DNA of 64,000 nucleotides from Glossina fuscipes (Eukaryota; Arthropoda; Insecta; Diptera; Glossinidae), in the NCBI RefSeq assembly GCF_014805625.2, contig NW_023998416.1:11126976-11190975 (forward strand), given 5' to 3'. The notes under the pieces were generated by a model. That model worked only from the letters and a program-made list of their open reading frames with translations, did no database searches and was not told the DNA's origin. The position numbers were made by a program, and so were the translations under genes. Shown one piece after another: positions 1 to 63,265 of the stretch. Position 1 is the stretch's first letter, and each line of letters starts with the position of its first letter.

Positions 1-3000
1 GATATAAAAAATATTTATGCCTTAAAGTATACATTTTATAAGAGAAAATTTTAAAGTTATAAGTTTTAAGAATTAATGTGTTTTTGTTTCGCGTGATTGA
101 TGATAATTTTTTCAACTTTTAAAAAAGAAAAGATTCTTAAATTTATTTTAAATATTTTTTTTAAATTCTTTAATAGCTTTTTTGGAAGAAGCCTTGTCAG
201 GCGATGCTTTTAAGACAAGGTGGATCTCTCTTAAATTTTTCTGTGTGTTACATAAGCCGGCATTGGCGAAGAGTATAACAACGAAAATAATATTTTAACT
301 ATTTCCAGAATTGCAATAAGCGACTTAAAGTACTGATTGTACTATGATTCGTTATAACGAAAAACAAGTTAAGATTAGCTTTAAAGGTAATCATGAGACT
401 TAAAAAAGACCAAATTAGAATTAGCTAACAGCTTAAAATTAAAATCAACTAAAAATCTACGCAGTGGGAATGTATCTCTGAAATATGTCCATCAAATACA
501 CAACAGTTGTAGTAAATTTTTGATGATAGTACAGAGGATCGTTTTTGATCGTTTTTTTAATTTTTTAATATTTGTTCAATTCGTATAACTCGTTTTATCT
601 ACGATACGACAAAGGCATAAACTCGAGTTTAAATAGTTACCCTTTAGCAAAAGAAAAGCGCTGATTACGATCATTGACCTAACTTCCTGCCAGAGAAAGG
701 CGCTACATTTTGATCATCAGCTTAATTAGATGTGAAATGAAATGAAATTTTTCTTAACAATTGAAAATCTACATCATGTCTTACCAATTTTAACTAACCC
801 CATTTATATATAAACAGAAGTTGAAAATAAAATTTTTTTTTAATGCGTTAAGTGTTAAAAATTGATCAAAGGCAGCATACGCGCCTTAATTGATTCTAAA
901 AATAAATTTTGTTTTTTTTTGTTTTTTTTGTTTTGTTTTTTGTAATTATTAATGTGAAAATTCAATAACCAGAAGTAAATAATATTAAAATAAAATTAGA
1001 TAATCAATCATTTTAAATTCAAAAGGTTGAGCTGGGCAGGCATTGTTTGAATTTGACAAATTTACCGCTGTTATTGTACACACGCCTGTCAAGCTAAGCA
1101 TGTACAATTTATTTTAATGTCATTTATTCAATTCTTGCAAAATGTAATTTGTAGTCATTGTGTTTTAGTGGCAATTAATTTCCCAAACGTATAGAATGTT
1201 CCCTTTTCTCAGACTGCCCGCAAATGTTACTAAGTTGTTGTATTTTTGGTATTTTAACCGATATACCACCAACCAGCCGCCTATCACTGTTACAATTGAA
1301 TGTTCATAGGTATAATGACCTGTTTGGATCAACCCGAATATAAGTATAAATAACAATGGATACCAGTGATGATAGTGATGATGATGATGATGATGATGAT
1401 GATGACAAGGATAACAGTGGTATTACACATTCATGTGGGCAATGAAAATTTCATAACATGAGTACAATCAGTAAGCTATGGAAAACTTCTTTGGTTTGGC
1501 TTGTCTGCAGGAGATTGACTGACTGGCTAGGTCGTTGACGGATAAAAAGTTACGATCTTTTTTTTTTTTAATCTGCTTCTGTAAGCTACAAAACAAACAA
1601 ACGCCCTCATTGTATGTGGGAGGTGTGTTAATCGAACTCATGCAAATTTTATTATTACATAGTAATCTTCACTCAATGCGGCAGATTTAATAGATGTTTT
1701 TTTTTTTTTTTCTCAGTGCTGCTGCTATTGCTGTAGCTGCTTTTAACTCTCCTTGCATATAATAATGAATGAATGAAATTTTTAAATTTGACTTTTGTTG
1801 ATTCATGTATTTACATGGAGCATATACCACATAGCAGGCATTACATCATGCCTTATGATTGATTGCCAACTGTTAATGACAGATGACATACATGCACTTA
1901 TATGCAAACATATACTCAATTATTACAATTATTTTGGGTGGAAATTAAAATACCAAAGATAATTTGCACAGTAAGAGAATATTGATAGCTCAACAAAAAA
2001 ACTCCTTTCATTTCCTTTTCTAAGATTTTTGAAAACTTTTTCTCAATTTCGTGAGTATTTCTTGTTCTTCTGCTTTTAACTTAATTAAAATTGGCTAATT
2101 TTTGCAAAAACATTTTTCTGACATTATTCAATTAATTATAGTTTGTGTTCGGGCAAAATTTCTCATTAAATATTTGCTTTAATGCTTCACTTGTTTATTC
2201 CTTTCTTCCTTCTTAATAAATTATTCGCTATGATATTGTTGTTGCTAGAAAAAACTTGAATTTTTTATCAATTCAGTTATTAACTTGTATATAAAGATTA
2301 AAAAAGTATTTCATATCAAAATTCCATAATAAAAGTTCTTCAAACGATTGAATTTTTTTCCAGGGGGACGAGGCTCGATGTACTTTCGCATCTACAACCC
2401 GAGAAGGAGGGTATGCCGTTACTGTTTTCCAATAGCGATACTCATAAATACGCATCAGGATGTCCGTCTGTCCTTACATCCGTTTGTTTGCCATTCGTTT
2501 CGAAAAAAGACAGCAACCGCAACATCGCTTTGAACTTTCAACATTGGCAAGCTTCAATCGAAACTGTCCAATTCGAAATGTCAGGTTAAAGTTCTTCTAT
2601 GATTAGAAAAACCCATAATAAAAATTCCCATGCGATAACGTTTTCAGCGTTAACACTAGATTTACGAATATCGCGCAACACGGCGGCTGAATTGAAGGAA
2701 TCCTCACAGCCACCAAAATATAGATGCGAATTTTTCGTTTATAACTTTTTATTCCATGAATATATTCATGTAAAAGCCTGGTACGCAAATGTTCCCTAGA
2801 ATCGCCCTGGACCGTGTGGACGTGTTGGTAAACCGATTGGGAGCACTCTTGCACTGAACATGCAAGCGTTTTTAGAGAGCAACTTCGTAAAATTGTCCGT
2901 GTTTTACGAGGTTATCTCAGTTTCTTTTGCATTGTGGGGCGTGCGTGCAAACAACCAAGTATTCTTAATCGACCGAGGAACTTTTGTGCTCAATTTCGTT

Positions 3001-6000
3001 TTTCCTTCTTCATATTTGCGGCTGTAAGGACTCACTAAATTTACCCGTCAAATTGAAGGGGGTCGATAGGAGCGGACACAAAGTCACCTTAGACGTTAGT
3101 GCTTTAAGCTTCGAGCTATTATTAGGAAAAGACGCCATTTCCTTTCAAACGAACAAAGCTAAGAAATAATGATAGATTATGTGAACAGTAACTCAATTTT
3201 AAGGAAAGGCATCTAATTTAGTAGTATTAAGAAACAGTGCAAGAATAGTATTGAAGCGTAAGGAGTAAGTTATTAAAGTCTCTCCTTCAAATCTAGTCTT
3301 CAGTTTTTGTTATTACTTACGAACCTTTGAATTGAGAAACAAAACAACTGGCTTGCAAATCATAGTAAATCCACTCAAACCCCTTACGCTATATCTTATT
3401 GATAAGTCTATCATTAATCAAAGATCTCAACCTTCATATCCTACAAGCCCAACTCTGTGGTTTGAATTTTCTCTAGGTTATTACAAATACACCTACAAAG
3501 TGATTTAGTGAACAAATGCGGCTTAAGCACTAACGTTTGGTATTATGTGCAAACTCAAAATTTCATTAAATATTTAAATTGCTTCAGTTTCAACAAAACG
3601 CTTACGTAAACAACGATTCAATATCGAAAGTAACAATAAAAAAAAAAAAAACTAAAACTAAAACAAAGGGTTTAACTTTAGCTTTAAAGCGAACTTGGAA
3701 TACCCTTCATTTTGAGGAAATCTATGAAAATTTCCAAATTTTTTCCCATCTTCGGAAATGTCAGAACTTATTTACACGTTCCAAAGTAGTAAATGATTTT
3801 TCCAAATTTTAATTCGACAAATACTAAGCGTTTTTTTTATTATTAATGATAAGATTTTGTAATCGTCGATTCTTTATTTTCTACATCGGAAACTTTCGTT
3901 TCGTATATTTTATGTTAATTTTATTTCCTTGAAAAATATTAAAGGTTAGATGTATTTAGTAGAAAAAAAATTGTTCTAACATGGTAGAGAACGAGTGCAT
4001 AGCATTATCCTACGATTTCTGTTGTTGGTGAGAACATCACCGAAATTTTGTAGAAAATCTGTTATTAGTTTGACTCTGTAATAATATATATATATATATA
4101 TATATATAGCAATTTTGTTAGTCAAGTAACATGTACATAACATTTACTATAATATATAGAACTGAAATAGTGTTGCCATGTGTATTCAAAATTATTCCCA
4201 GAATTTATATGAAATGTATATCATATTTACGAACATATGACATATAACTTTTTACATTCGTGATCGTCTATGCGGCGAGATCATGTCCAGTTTCAAGTTG
4301 AATTTGCAGAAATCGAAAGACTTCAGCCTTCATTCTTAATTTTTGAGGGCTTTTGAACGCCAACAGTAAAATATACAAAGAAATGAAATTAAATGGGATG
4401 AAGAGCGCTTTCTTATATTATGAATGTTTTCAGATTTTACAGACGAAATAAAGGAATTTACATATTTTACATTCCGGTGTAGCAAGATAGTAAGTGTAGG
4501 TGAAAATAAGTAAGTGTAAGTGTAGGTAAAAAAAAACCACAGAACCTAACTCGTATGAAATAAACAATTTATTTGCTATATCATGCATGAAAATGTGAGA
4601 CTGTACATCCGAAGTAAGTAAGGAACATAATAGATGAAGTGAATATATATATGTATAAATGGTATAGAAATAAGTTATGAGTGGATTTTTATAAAAAAAA
4701 CCGCTGATTGCCAAAGATTGTTAAAAGGATTTTTATATAAAATCTTTTACATTGACAGTTAATACTTTTGTTTTCGTATAAAATAATATGGAAATGGTCT
4801 TTTCGAGCTACTTACGTGAGCATCGATTTCTTACGTATCGTCCAATGAACGAAAGGGCTTCTCCGACACTATTAACCAGCGAAGTACAAATAACTTACGA
4901 CGCTAGCTAAGGTGAGAGGGCATTTGAACTGAAAACCCTAGTTAAATTTTGTATAATTAGATGGAATTTCTTCTTACGCATATAACATCACATTATGATA
5001 AAGTTAATTCAACTTTACTGACAGACGTAATTCCATCAGTTATTCCTGATCACATTGGTCAGCGATAATTTGGTCTACTGGAGTATTCGACTTTATCATA
5101 GACGTGCATTATTTGCAAACTATTTTCCTCTTTCGACATTGTATCGCATCCATATTCCACCACCCGTCACGTTGCACTTTCCTTCGAGGCTTAAGAGGTA
5201 GCTCAAGTCTCGCTTGTTGCTCTTTTTCGGCGGAAAGGTCTACCTATCCCTAACTATATTATTCACGTTGCTTAAAACTTAAATATAGTAAAGTAAGGAA
5301 ATTGTTCAGAAGAACCAGTAAGGACTTGTTTATATACATTAAATTTATGCACATTGTGTTATCGTTAGCGTTTCCATTACATATAATAAAACAACATAAC
5401 AAAACTATACAAAAGCTGCTTAAGCTGAGAACAACAACAATGATAATAATCTTGGGAACAAAGTTGTTGAGCAGTAGGAAACGCGAGTCGCAAGTATGCA
5501 GCTCTTGCGGATCTGTTTGTGGCTTTCAATGAATTTGCAATCACATGGTATGCCAATGTATTTCGGTTAGCTTTACGTGCATCTATTTAATGTGTAAAAT
5601 ATATTTGAGCAATAAATTGTTTTCATTCTTTTTATTTATGCATTTGTTGTTGTTTTTTTTTTTGTTTTTTTTTTTTGTTTTTCATTTTCTGTTAGAAAAC
5701 AATTTTATTCGCTGTATTTAATGTACAATCATGTTAAGGATTCACGATGTGTTGGATTATAAAAACAAAACCTTTATGCACTACTAACTAAACGAATGCT
5801 AAGTGATTTAAAAAGGTAAACAAACAACACGATAGCTGACGTACTTGAATTTAAGAGAAATACATATCCGAAATTCTCGAAATGCGTACAGTTTGCACAA
5901 GCCAACAACAAGCAAATGCCAACATGTGTGCATTTTAAGCATGACAGATTTCAATTGATTGCTCTACCTGTAACCGAGCAACAATGTGATAGGGTTTGCA

Positions 6001-56803: not shown

Positions 56804-59800
56804 ATGACAACATATCTATCGTGGGAATATCCGGAAATGCCGGAGAACGTTAAGTATATTTGCTTTCAAGTTTCTTGACCCACGAACAGAAAAGAAAAAT
56901 ATTTAAAAAATTTTCTTTTTAGCAAATTATTGCTGCAAAATGATAAAAAATTGGTGATCATAGGAGTTATAGGTAAATCTGCATTTCCTGATTGCAATAA
57001 AATGGTAGCTCTTAATATATTAGACCGGCATCCCGCTTTACTAGACCACGAAGCAAAAGAGGTGAGTACATTTAGAGAAAAGAAAATCCTCTGCGATCCA
57101 TCTCCCTAGTATCTACATATGTACGTCAAAGTAAAATTTATATATATTTTTATTTAGGGTCAAATTCAATTTTATTATAATCCTGCAGAGTCCATATTGT
57201 GGTTGCATTTTGAGACCACTTTGGATGCGTTTTGCATGCAAAAATTGCTTTTGGAAGAGCTGCAGAACGAAACCTTTGATCAATTTTTAACTTTTCACCA
57301 GCGTATGCGTAGTCGTTTTGCACGCATGTTCCTCTTTGCTACTCACGTGTGCCACCTGATAGTATTTGTTGAGCTTAGTGTTACTTTTGATGCTTCATTG
57401 TTAGGCATGTTTAAAGCCTTGAAGATTATCCGGTAAATCAGAAATTATCGTAAAAATTGCCTTTTTACTAAGCAACAGTGTCATTTAAGAGATCGTCACG
57501 TTCTACGTTTTTTGCCCAAATTTATTAAAAATTCCAGAACTGGATTTATGTTCGGTAAAACTGCTCGCTTATGTTCGCCAAGAGTTCTGTTCCTTTTTGA
57601 AAACTTGCCAAAAGGCTATGGTAAGTTGGTTATGGTTAGTTGGAGTTGTCTTCTTTTTTAAATTCGAATTATTTCTTTGGATTCTAATTGCAGAGAAGTC
57701 TTACGAATCAATTTCCAAAATGGAGTTCGAAGTGGAAGATAATATCTATAAAATGTTACGTAATGAGTATATAGTGGTCAATAATAATGCATCTTCGCTA
57801 TTCTCTATACCGGTTAACCAGCGTTTCGTTTATTATAATTTAAATGACAAGCACCGAGAAGATCCCGTATTAAGTTCGGTAAATTTTTTGCATGAATTAC
57901 TGAAGAAACCAAGCTTATTGCAAACTGACGAAGAAATAGAGGAGTTGCTGCCGTATAAGGTAAAGAGATGAAAATAATTTTAAATGCAACTATAAGAATT
58001 TTGAAATTTTGATTAGGATTTTGGTAGACCTTTTTCGGACCTCAGTGACAGTGACCAAAAACCGCCCGAAGAAGAACAGTTTTTTGCCCACAATCGTAAA
58101 TTTATGGATCTACTAAAAGAACATATCGATCAGGCTTTAGATACTGGCTTCAATGACAATTTGTCCAAGTATAAGGGCAAAAGTCATTTTGTTGTGTTGT
58201 CCGCCAAACCTTGGTTTGAAGCTTTTAAGTTATTACATAAGATTTTCATAGAAAATCCCGATAATGAACAATTTGAGGCAAACGATGCAGATTATGTAAG
58301 TGCTATACATTTGACAAATAACCGTTGATGGTAAAAGTCCTTTAAATTTCAGAAAGCTTACTTAGAAAACTTTGATAAAATTGTAAATTACGACAGCGAG
58401 TAAGTGTCTGGATTTTCAATACCAATAAAACTTAATTAGTTAGTGTATTTTCAGATTTTTTAAGGCTTGCTGCGATATCGGATTACAAAAAGCCTTTTCT
58501 ATGTATAATAATCCTACACTTACATACTATAGTGCCGTGATCCATAAGAAAATGGTAAGTATTTCTAAGGCGGAAGCCATTGACTAAGTTCAGCTTATTT
58601 TCGTAGACAGAAGAAGCCGTTACACTTTATCGAAAATATGCCAGGGGTCCAGATAAATCTGTTAATGAATTAACTTTAAGAGAAATGTGCGAAACGTGTT
58701 GGAAATCGGGTAAACAACAATGCGAATATCCTAGTTTGCGTGGCAGTCCTTGTGCTCTTCCTAAACATATTGTTAAAGAAGCAACTGAACATTCTAGTGG
58801 CGTTGTGTACATATCCGCTTGCAACTGTGGAAAGACGCAAGGACGTCGGGAGGACCCTTACAGCATACGTCATGCCAATTATGAGTTCTATGAATATATG
58901 GCCAATAATTGTACATTGTGCGCAAAAGTCAAGCACATACGTTTCGCAATATTTGAACCTTCCATTAACGATTATAGGCAAGTCATTCTCAGCTTCATAA
59001 AAAATCCCTGTATTAAGTAATATTTTATTTTGAATGTCGTAATTTTAGGGCTGCTGAATATGACCGCGCGTTTTGTAAAACCTCTCTTAGCCTGAATAAA
59101 GAAGATGAGATTTATTCAATGAATGCCCATTCCGATGAAGATAATTATGAAGATGAAAACATGTCGCAACGATTAATGGCTTCTCAAAATTCTCACACCA
59201 ATCTTAGTCTTTCAGTTTCTTTAGATAATTTGAATAAAATTGATGAGCGTGACAATGTTATGAACAGTTCGGACGAGTCTGTAAATGAACTGATTTTAAA
59301 AGTAAAAGACAAAGAGGTTCAAGACGAAGATAAAGAACGTTCCGTATTACGACAGCCTTCCACCACTGAATACCTTCCGGGTATGGTTCACACTGAAAGC
59401 CCAGTGGGCTTATTGCCGCAATTTCCTAGTTGGTCTTTATGTTGCGTGGGCGCAAGCTCGGTTTATAGTCACAATACTGGTTTAATGGAACATTTCCAAA
59501 GTGGATTTTTGACAGGCTCCAATTTTCTTTTACCTTGGGATGTGCACGTTCGCTTGGAACATTCAGCATCTTGGGCGGCTGCTTACGAAAAAACCCGCTA
59601 TCGCAAAATGGGTGAAGTATTCGTGCTGAAAATATTTGTCGGTTTTGAATATGAATGTCCACGAGGCCACCGATTTATGATGTCCGCACCTGATAAAGTG
59701 CTAAGAGGAGGATCAGGTTTGTTATGATATTTTATATATTATTATCAAAAAAAAAAAAAGGTAATTATTTGAAGGAATTCTACGTGACAGTGGAAGTAAG

Positions 59801-61210
59801 GTTGTTTACAATAATATGCCGTTGTATTTTCCCTGCCCATGTCGCACGAAGAAATTTGATGTAGCCCAACTAATGAGAATACATGTGGTTACACCGAAAG
59901 CTCCCGTGAACGTTATATTGGATCCTAAGGTGCGTAAATCTTCTATTAAAAATTGAATACATATGTTGACAAATCCTTTAAAATGTATATTGCTTATGCA
60001 ACAGTAGAATTTATGTGCTCTGGTATGACCATTGTTCAACAAGACTTTTTGAGAAAATTCAAAGTGCTTGACAAGTTTCATCCAATTTTTGTTGAGCTTA
60101 CAGCAATCGTAAGGTAACTCTCTCTATAGGCCTTCTCTCCAAATAATCGCAATAAATTGCTAACATCTTTAGAAGCATTAAATTATTGTCCGCAACGAAA
60201 CTGCATCTTATTTGGGTACCAAGTCATTACTGTCTTTCGCTCAATGAAAAAAAGGTGATGGTCTAACAAAGGAAGCAGTCCAATGATAAACGCTGAATCA
60301 TGAATATCGCAGATTTTCAACTCATGTGAAAATAAATTGCTAAATCGCCTTCTAACAGGACACACATATGACAAAGCCTAGCTTCATATGATTGGGTCTG
60401 CACCTAGTGATCTTCGTGGCACATGCAGCTTAAGCATCAGTACCAGAAATTATGTTAGCTTTTTCTCATTCTTTTCGGATTTAAAAAGTATCTTTTTAGC
60501 AAGCGATGAATAGTTACTCAAAGAGCTGACTTCCTTTATTAAACTAACGGGTATTGAACTTTGATATACCATTCAATATAAACATTATCTGTTTATCGTC
60601 AATTACTCTTTGGTCTTTATTACAGTCGCTAAAAAAAATTTTATTTACAGGAAAAATTTTTAGAAAATTTTACAACTTTCTTTGTCCACATGTAAGAGGT
60701 TTAAAAGTCATGAAAGGATAAATTTTGTAAAAGAGACCGTCTCCATTTGATTTTCCTATATCCCAATATTTGTATTTCTAATCTTGCATGATTTTGTTTC
60801 AAATTAGACGGAAGGTGTCTTTGGGGAGATATTTGGTTGAGAGAATTTCTTCATAAGATCAGCTTCACAGCTATACCTTGATATTGATTTTCTGGACTAA
60901 ACCCCAGAATGGACATTACTGAATGGACCATTACAACTTGAACCACAACTAATCAAAATTCAATTATCAACAAATCATTATTAAACATCAGGTGCGTACA
61001 GGCGAGCAGGGCTACATTTTCATATTGGGCTTACCTGATCCCCCCAAGCTGAGCCAAAGCGCGTATTGGATGTTGAGATTACCATACATCTATCAAGGCG
61101 ACGAAGAACCCATATCACCGCCTACTGATATAACAGCTTCGAATGCTTTAAGTTATGGTTGTCTTATGGCCGGCATGTTCGGCGTTAGCGAAATGGAAGT
61201 GGATGATTAA
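56804..61210 (+). CDS. SMG8: Nonsense-mediated mRNA decay factor SMG8
   Basis: Twelve exons, join(56804-56853, 56923-57061, 57158-57432, 57490-57620, 57694-57959, 58017-58295, 58353-58399, 58455-58554, 58607-58977, 59049-59716, 59775-59929, 60992-61210), give 899 residues in one continuous frame; human SMG8 is 991. The N-terminus carries the GTPase-like fold start ([15 protein letters not shown], about 26-40). A Cys cluster spans about 457-535 ([31 protein letters not shown]). The C-terminal half matches SMG8 through [35 protein letters not shown] and [14 protein letters not shown]8 with SMG9 binds and restrains the SMG1 kinase that phosphorylates UPF1. Intron 9 uses a GC donor. Intron 11 is about 1.06 kb and contains a retrotransposon relic; the other introns are about 55-120 bp. 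Ends 224 bp from the Dpy-30 stop, tail to tail. Confidence 0.95.
58978..59048 (+). other. GC-AG intron 9 of SMG8
   Basis: The only in-frame way to join the two homologous exons is TATAG|GCAAGT to TTTTAG|GGCTGC, which yields [12 protein letters not shown]. The nearest GT (GGCAA|GTCATT) leads to a stop at once. The AG|GCAAGT donor matches the strong consensus expected of functional GC donors. Confidence 0.8.
59930..60991 (+). mobile_element. SMG8 intron 11 = 5'-truncated non-LTR retrotransposon relic
   Basis: Sense-strand frames read, in RNase H order, [33 protein letters not shown] (about 60049-60108), [15 protein letters not shown] (about 60213-60250; consensus WVPGHSG--GNE), [11 protein letters not shown] (about 60335-60365), [15 protein letters not shown] and finally [14 protein letters not shown] (about 60510-60553), the usual end of I/Jockey-type ORF2. 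Stops and frameshifts show it is long dead. No reverse transcriptase precedes it, as expected of 5' truncation. The 9-bp sequence AGGTGCGTA flanks the whole intron (59928-59936 and 60990-60998) and both splice junctions lie in it. The acceptor lacks a pyrimidine tract (TTAAACATCAG). Confidence 0.75.
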
Positions 61211-61236
61211 TAAAACTATTTTATGTAAAAATTAAA
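61209..61236 (+). terminator. Candidate poly(A) signals, SMG8
   Basis: AATAAA overlaps the stop codon (61209-61214) and ATTAAA lies at 61231-61236. The second is the more usable one. Either implies a very short 3' UTR that does not reach the Dpy-30 transcript. Confidence 0.35.
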
Positions 61237-61383
61237 CAACTACGTTTATTTTTTATACACCAAATGAGAGAAACCTTACGTGAACTAAACTAAAAGTAAA
61301 TTGTTCGAAAAATTAATTATAGGACCAGCTTATTTCAATGTAATATTTGGCAGATATCATAATATATTCTTACTGAAAATTTG

Positions 61384-61389
61384 TTTATT
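61384..61389 (-). terminator. Candidate poly(A) signal, Dpy-30 gene
   Basis: AATAAA on the minus strand about 45 nt after the stop codon. Confidence 0.5.
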
Positions 61390-61434
61390 GAAGAACTTGT
61401 AAGAGAAGTTTAACTGTCCAAGCACACTACACAT

Positions 61435-61734
61435 TTACACATTTTCCGGTATAGCCTCCTCACAGCGATTCTTATTTTTCAATAGATAAGCAGCTAAAAA
61501 ATTGATAGGATCTGCTGGACGCTCCCGTGCCAGAGTTTGTAATGCATGCAGCAAAATAGGTGCCACAGTTTGATCCAAGTATTGGCGCGTTGGTAATGCA
61601 TTTAAATCGCTGCGATTCTTTTTACATTGCGATGCGGCGGTAGGATTACTGGCGTTACTGTTCGCAGATGGTATTGGCTGAGTTGATTCAGCTGTAGGCA
61701 AGTTTCCTTGTGAATTTGTATCAACTTTTTCCAT
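61435..61734 (-). CDS. Dpy-30L1: Dpy-30 family protein
   Basis: Intronless 99-codon gene. The N-terminal half is Ser/Asn/Thr/Ala-rich and unstructured. The Dpy-30 motif occupies about residues 48-89: [20 protein letters not shown], then [20 protein letters not shown]. This is the two-helix dimer that docks on ASH2L in COMPASS/MLL H3K4 methyltransferases (family knowledge). The R-Y-D--V-P-L-L and RP-DPI-FLA-YLL signatures are intact, so function is likely kept. Flies have more than one Dpy-30-like gene; the somatic, broadly used L1 type is my guess because of its position among housekeeping genes, and the symbol should be read in that light. Convergent with SMG8; divergent from EMC3, with 718 bp between start codons. 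Confidence 0.92.
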
Positions 61735-62452: not shown

Positions 62453-63265
62453 ATGACCGAACTTTTAATTGATCCTAATATAAGAGTTTGGGTGTTTTTA
62501 CCTATTGTGTTGATCGCTTTTTTCATAGGCATTTTAAGGCATTATGTTTCGACTTTGATATCTTCCCAGAAAAAAGCCGAAATGCTGCAAGTCCAAGACA
62601 GGTAAAAAAACCAAATATAAGTGTATTACGCCAACAATGAACTATATATGTATTTTAGTCAAGTTATGATACGATCCCGATTATTACGTGAGAATGGTTG
62701 GTATTTGACGGCTCACTCGTTTGCAATGCGCAAAAATTTCTTCAATAATGAGGAAAATGGCTATTTTAAGACTCAGAGAAGACCGCCAGTATCACAAAAT
62801 TCCACGGCAGTTCTAACGGACATGGTTAAAGGCAATTTCATTAATGTTTTACCTATGGTTATAATAGGCGGTTGGATAAATTGGATGTTTAGTGGTTTTG
62901 TAACCACAAAAGTGCCTTTTCCATTGACGTTACGCTTTAAACCTATGTTACAACGGGGTGTTGAATTAGCGGCTTTAGATGCTGCTTGGGTTTCTTCAGC
63001 TTCTTGGTATTTTCTGAATGTGTTTGGCTTACGGTCCATATACACCGTAGTTTTGGGTGAAAATAATCAGGCTGACCAAACGCAGGCCCAAGCGGATGCA
63101 ATGACAATGTCTGCAATGTCAATGTCTCAAGACCCCAAAGCTTCTTTCAAAGCCGAGTGGGAGGCGCTAGAAATAACGGAATACCGCAACGCTTTGCACA
63201 ACGTTGAAAATGATTTACTGCATTTGGCGAACGAGAACTACAATTTAGTTGCTGAAGATAATTAG
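62453..63265 (+). CDS. EMC3: ER membrane protein complex subunit 3
   Basis: Two exons, join(62453-62601, 62659-63265), with a 57-bp GT-AG intron, give 251 residues; human EMC3 is 261. The start [20 protein letters not shown] opens a first membrane helix. The conserved cytosolic stretch [17 protein letters not shown] follows. Two further membrane helices lie in [19 protein letters not shown] (about 118-137) and the [20 protein letters not shown] region (about 170-190), with [19 protein letters not shown] between them. EMC3 is the YidC/Oxa1-related core of the complex that inserts tail-anchored and multipass proteins into the ER membrane. All expected segments are present, so the gene should be functional. 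Ends 145 bp from the CFAP20-type stop codon, tail to tail. Confidence 0.96.

Follow-up and report, generated by a model that had tools for sequence, protein, structure and literature searches.

A possible de novo intron in the tsetse SMG8 gene, perhaps templated by dead repeats during repair of a staggered exon break

How introns originate is an old open question, and several described cases of intron gain involve short direct repeats at the exon ends. In Daphnia pulex, new introns ascribed to staggered double-strand breaks have the exon ends repeated directly, over 4-12 bp, at opposite ends of the intron, according to the part of the report consulted (PMC4202315). Among Drosophila introns, the corresponding portion of a second study describes six novel ones whose splice sites are covered by direct repeats of 8 bp or more, and notes that in novel introns splice sites are weaker and premature stops more frequent (PMC2809761). 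A third study, as far as its excerpted text goes, lists 187 gained Drosophila introns without a definitive mechanism, finds direct repeats of 5 bp or longer at 26 of 100 conserved and at 19 of 77 gained introns, derives intron 3 of Dsec GM26034 from Doc1053 (99% coverage, 98.4%, five residues added) and proposes mitochondrial-like filler from double-strand break repair for other introns (PMC3296678). In the excerpts of two further sources, a survey of Introners required families of at least four similar introns (PMC9860276), and a review counts 35 transposon events and five break-repair events as unambiguous intron gains (PMC3443670).

Here we describe intron 11 of the SMG8 gene of the tsetse Glossina fuscipes, for which a single genome still shows the target, the duplication, a source-like locus and a branch site. 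With both the birthplace and the likely source still readable, this is an unusually testable case of intron birth which, if true, would tie templated-insertion repair directly to the birth of an intron. The SMG8 protein itself belongs to the nonsense-mediated decay pathway, which has been proposed to shelter new introns. In the titles and abstract openings of the open-licence literature we found nothing joining SMG8 and Glossina, and the works retrieved for SMG8 and intron gain concern other matters; none of the titles listed for intron gain (target-site duplication, break repair, template switching, microhomology, Glossina) is on SMG8.

The window, that is, the whole stretch of 64,000 nucleotides that was analyzed, is part of contig C234 (35,522,298 bases). 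SMG8 comprises 12 exons in this window, and its spliced coding sequence yields an intact protein of 899 amino acids. The relation to known SMG8 proteins is evident from 67 protein matches, for which PF10220 is listed and the best of which are to Glossina fuscipes SMG8, from 59-75% identity to dipteran SMG8 proteins (P0003-P0007, P0011 and P0012) over 99-100% of the query, and from a structure match to PDB chain 6l54_B, 'Protein SMG8' (residues 110-875, E 1.1e-87). On the plus strand, to which all feature coordinates refer, the spliced reading frame places exon 11 at 59775-59929 and exon 12 with the stop codon at 60992-61210. Between them lies intron 11 at 59930-60991, the putative de novo intron, in phase 0 between K827 and V828. 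Its length of 1062 nt is in line with the approximately 1.06 kb given in the first-pass annotation of this DNA, whereas the other ten introns, for which 55-120 bp had been given, measure 52-96 nt. Intron 9 (window 58978-59048) is a GC-AG intron (TAG|GCAAGT), at which one of the protein models discussed below, P0002, lacks 20 residues in addition to its loss at intron 11.

A perfect 9-bp direct repeat, AGGTGCGTA, lies exactly where the first-pass annotation had placed it, with copy 1 at 59928-59936 carrying the donor AG|GTGCGT and copy 2 at 60990-60998 carrying the acceptor AG|GTG. One AG|GT splice site is contained in each copy, as had been claimed, and the predicted splicing restores DPK|VRTG with the frame intact. 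In-register identity across the splice junctions extends over 9 nt at intron 11 and over 0-4 nt at the other ten SMG8 introns. In a control set of 110 mismatched SMG8 donor/acceptor pairs it ranged from 0 to 7 nt, and 7 nt, reached by 1 of the 110 pairs, was the longest match to set against the 9-nt repeat of the exon end that flanks intron 11. The repeat also has the form of the target-site duplication of a Doc1053-type LINE intron, a feature that is not specific to LINEs. When 200,000 random pairs were drawn from the 128 plus-strand AGGT sites of the window, 1.1% showed an identity of at least 9 nt, which bears out the earlier caution that the repeat taken alone could be a coincidence. By itself, the 9-bp repeat is suggestive, not decisive.

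The insert contributes a branch-point-like site, CTAAT, at 60949-60953. The A of this motif is 40 nt from the acceptor, no AG occurs before 60990, and the next AG downstream is the acceptor itself; given CTAAT and the lack of an intervening AG, the candidate acceptor appears workable. It was correctly described before as having no pyrimidine tract and, judged by eye, both the donor AAG|GTGCGT and the tractless acceptor look weak to moderate. In unspliced RNA, a stop follows after eight intron codons. The protein had also been said to be collinear at the junction, and 64 of the 67 homologues reach the site, 63 of them being collinear at K|V and P0002 being the exception; this collinearity has no bearing on the presence of the intron in other flies. 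A second G. f. fuscipes record, P0001, has DPKVRTG at this place, in agreement with the junction. P0002 (GQX74_001370), a model on this assembly, departs after DPKVR and resumes at DEEP with a loss of 34 residues, which fits a donor at 59934 and an acceptor at 61097 (59934-61097; worked out by hand). We regard this splice model as a modelling error; it points to a competing donor supplied by the insert, GTAAAT, which begins with the GTA at 59934-59936.

A search of the genome with the complete insert gave at least 51 matches, the insert itself included, and 40 of the 52 first candidates were scored. Among the matches listed, C23:486449-487817 is the sole one that extends from edge to edge of the insert, the others being partial. 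It aligns in two blocks, window 59934-60611 and 60685-60988, which are 96% identical within the blocks and show a K2P of 0.045 (623 columns) and 0.041 (304 columns), respectively. The homology to C23 stops inside the first AGGTGCGTA copy and one base short of the second, and the only intron bases beyond it are GTGC (4 nt) at the 5' end and CAG (3 nt) at the 3' end. Because just these 4 and 3 nt fall outside the edges of the C23 match, there is no room for an older intron, which argues, independently of any calculation of chance, that the intron was created by insertion. The earlier proposal that a proto-splice site in an uninterrupted exon received the insertion thus gains support from the fact that all but 4 + 3 nt lie inside the edges of one ectopic copy, and birth of the intron by such an insertion is the most likely origin.

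Both repeats represented in the insert continue past its edges at C23. In reverse-strand (rc) coordinates of this locus (L009), LINE homology at rc 2787-3882 crosses the 5' edge of the intron (rc 3184), and the relative L016 aligns across the same edge over rc 3148-3238 at 70%. Similarly, the dispersed repeat termed A/B, at rc 4108-4739, crosses the 3' edge of the intron (rc 4552), and L013, L014, L026 and L027 align across rc 4552. Since both repeats run past the insert edges, we take the source to be C23-like and the ends to be arbitrary, and the best reading of the insert is an arbitrary slice that has neither element ends nor a tail. One observation counts against the arbitrary-slice reading: the 3' edge lies near a weak spot of the A/B repeat, the local A/B match of L018, L019, L038 and L039 ending at rc 4549, three bases before the edge. 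C23 lacks about 40 bp that are present in the intron and kept, at least in part, in L016, and it also lacks, close to the end of the LINE, a few bases that are retained in relatives; C23 is therefore either a further-decayed form of the source or a sister of the source. The reverse strand of L009 has two copies of AACATATAC with a spacing of 20 bp at about rc 4547-4580, immediately outside the shared slice; this doubling is perhaps a small local duplication at C23. Relative to L009, the halves of the A/B repeat are in inverted order in L013, L014 and L034.

The composition of the insert is that of a mosaic. A fossil LINE-like slice at 59934-60632, internal at its 5' edge, is followed by an A/T-rich satellite-like patch of 45 bp at 60631-60675, which resembles tandem arrays at C285 and whose counterpart at C23 is about 400 bp of other sequence, and by a slice of the different dispersed repeat (A/B) at 60685-60988, internal at its 3' edge. 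Of the earlier view that a LINE fills the intron, the presence of LINE fragments stands and the filling of the whole intron does not, LINE sequence covering only about 59934-60632. The LINE-like fragments are found in two frames, at 60207-60251 in frame 0 and at 60331-60363 and 60514-60555 in frame 1; from their motifs we take them to be RNase H of a non-LTR element, and a YADD motif lies upstream in L016. Summed over three frames, 38 stop codons are common to the intron and the C23 copy, and the LINE motifs change frame identically in both. The LINE of the template was therefore dead before it was copied. A spliced RNA template was considered as the explanation for the shorter middle of the intron: the satellite-like patch is located there and no clean GT-AG removal is seen, and the shorter middle is therefore no evidence for RNA.

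No poly(A) or simple-repeat tail was found at the 3' end of the insert (60988). Doc is a LINE, and the LINE 3' end with a tail that marks an intron of the Doc1053 type is missing here, the insert ending inside the A/B repeat. A comparison of the 40-nt ends by eye revealed no clear terminal inverted repeats, such as many Introner families have. A weak inverted pair (22 nt, 73%) links 59937-59958 with 60958-60979 and is one of 53 listed in a 3-kb stretch; it starts at the 5' edge, and its other arm stops 10 nt inside the 3' edge. There is likewise no multi-copy family of the Introner kind, with one other edge-to-edge copy among the at least 51 matches.

At the 5' junction, the target ..AGGTGCGTA and the source ..CCAGTAAATC have GTA in common (59934-59936), a 3-nt microhomology situated where the target copy ends. 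The 3' junction in the intron reads AAACATCAGGTGCG, and the 10-mer at 60985-60994, ACATCAGGTG, is found again in C23 within the following 60 bp, where it comes 22 bases after AAACAT. The microhomology with the source proposed for this junction is CAGGTG (60989-60994), of which AGGTG probably represents the match to the source at the point where the second target copy begins. Matches of at least 10 nt were seen in 2 of 29,369 random 60-mers from 34 loci (C23 and SMG8 loci excluded), and ACATCAGGTG was absent from those 34 control loci. If real, the 3' microhomology requires a small deletion between ACAT repeats, of at least 6 bp if the C23 duplication is later; it is not required if the C23 match ends at AAACAT. 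If copying was primed from the two 3' ends of a 9-nt stagger, microhomology would be expected at both of them. The geometry of the junctions is equal for target-primed reverse transcription and so does not by itself distinguish a DNA from an RNA template.

Three slices of the SMG8 region are themselves present elsewhere in the genome. The longest, L024 (C234:20136511-20136945), is a 435-bp copy of window 61107-61541, reaching from exon 12 into downstream DNA; the copied slice begins about 115 bp from the intron insert, and its K2P to the window of 0.052 over 422 columns is similar to that of the intron insert. A 130-bp slice of exon 6 (window 58135-58264) has an ectopic copy on C264 (89%) and a 70-bp slice of exon 9 (window 58775-58844) one on C248 (87%). 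These ectopic slices of 435, 130 and 70 bp show that copying of arbitrary DNA occurs in this genome. None of the three is flanked by a 9-bp repeat, the longest repeat within 25 bp of the edges being 6-7 nt, an absence that speaks against one uniform process. A search of the same genome for an empty-site copy, made with both exon flanks, gave no second copy of the junction; the upstream exon flank is present once, and the downstream flank has just one other match, which begins 108 bases in. Farther downstream, window 62541-63108 has a second copy, 80% identical, at C234:2691073-2691625, which is possibly a paralogue of a neighbouring gene.

We consider it probable that repair of a staggered break in the exon, with copying of C23-like DNA, gave rise to a de novo intron. 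The fuller reading, a de novo animal intron whose source is still in the genome and which arose when a dead repeat patch was copied, with priming by microhomology, into the staggered break, is put forward more tentatively. Break repair is favored because the ends are arbitrary, the template was dead, no tail is present, and other slices of this gene region occur ectopically. Likewise, the 9-bp repeat is better read as the signature of a staggered break than as a transposon target-site duplication, since the insert is a mosaic of internal slices with no tail and a dead LINE. A continuous SMG8 exon (..GAT CCT AAG GTG CGT ACA GGC..) would have been broken with a 9-nt stagger over AGGTGCGTA, and the 3' ends would have been extended on an unrelated template of fossil LINE and other repeats, like C23 and presumably DNA rather than RNA, with priming probably by short homologies, GTA on the left and AGGTG on the right. 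Such repair would leave about 1.05 kb of filler flanked by two copies of AGGTGCGTA. The two copies of the proto-splice site would then furnish the donor AG|GTGCGT and the acceptor AG|GTG; the first-pass annotation had already named the duplicated AGGTGCGTA as the supplier of both splice sites, which is supported and most likely. With the filler contributing the CTAAT branch site and no AG before the acceptor, splicing would restore DPK|VRTG. A filler of 1 kb is long for end joining, which counts against break repair. The K2P of about 0.043 between the intron and C23 would correspond to a recent origin, on the order of 1 My, given general values for fly mutation rates and tsetse generation times.

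Self-insertion of a non-LTR element, as originally proposed for this intron, is not supported, given ends that are internal at C23, the lack of a LINE 3' end or tail, the mosaic composition, and a LINE that was already dead. In the main rival explanation a LINE could have acted differently, its machinery capturing in trans a read-through RNA of the dead LINE and flanking repeats where the exon had been nicked; the 9-bp repeat would then be a true target-site duplication and the 5' truncation a normal one. A duplication of 9 bp falls within the usual range for LINEs, and target-primed reverse transcription has the same 3'-end priming geometry. The insert is indeed 5'-truncated within the LINE and in sense orientation to it, and LINEs are a major class in Glossina in the part of the source consulted (PMC6721284). 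However, 60988 carries neither a poly(A) nor a simple-repeat tail, the 3' end falls in a different repeat instead of at the LINE 3' end, and the template LINE has many stops, so that we regard capture by a LINE as unlikely. Less probable still is a short ancestral intron into which the repeat slice was inserted, with a coincidental 9-bp repeat aided by the splice consensus. This explanation would need the old intron to be deleted almost exactly up to both splice sites, only 4 + 3 nt lying outside the source homology as compared with 52 nt for the shortest SMG8 intron, and a coincidental repeat in an old intron was rejected for want of space for the latter, even though many introns should have AG|GT at both of their ends and identity of at least 9 nt occurs in 1.1% of random AGGT pairs. 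In the excerpted text of the Drosophila survey, direct repeats of 5 bp or longer are also common at conserved fly introns, and their equal frequency at conserved and gained introns counts against a break-repair reading (PMC3296678).

Copying in the reverse direction, from the SMG8 intron to C23, might be entertained given that SMG8-region slices have been copied elsewhere in the genome. It was rejected, and is highly improbable, as both repeats continue past the slice at C23, collinear with relatives elsewhere, and the C23 slice is not bordered by SMG8 exon sequence. Equally hard to sustain is the insertion of an autonomous or non-autonomous DNA transposon, or of an Introner, with its own ends. 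Some DNA transposons produce a 9-bp duplication, and the weak 22-nt, 73% inverted pair (59937-59958/60958-60979) might be taken for such ends, but its 3' arm stops 10 nt before the edge, and no complementarity between the ends is apparent by eye. Introners may draw both splice sites from the target, in the part of the survey consulted (PMC9860276); here, one other edge-to-edge copy is present among the matches listed and the ends are internal to longer C23 repeats, and an autonomous transposon or Introner was rejected for having neither ends nor a family.

Set beside the described systems, SMG8 intron 11 resembles the Daphnia pulex introns in its exon-end repeats (9 bp in SMG8) and in its mosaic filler, which has been proposed there as well; in the portion of that work considered, most sources are unknown, whereas SMG8 has an edge-to-edge nuclear source-like locus and an insert of about 1 kb (PMC4202315). 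With the novel Drosophila introns it seems to share weak splice sites and premature stops, while a parental origin was found for none of those in the part of the study consulted, in contrast to the source-like locus available for SMG8 (PMC2809761). The Doc1053 and mitochondrial-like cases are, in the text excerpted, comparable examples of fly intron gain from LINE sequence with a target-site duplication or from filler, but the SMG8 insert differs from the Doc1053 intron in being a mosaic slice of dead repeats that adds no residue (PMC3296678). Some Introner families likewise draw both splice sites from the insertion site, according to the excerpted survey, whereas SMG8 presents one intron with one relative at C23 (PMC9860276). 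New introns flanked by repeats are thus already known, and a traceable nuclear source is rare among them; SMG8 intron 11 would be a further member of the break-repair type, with unusually complete evidence for both source and target.
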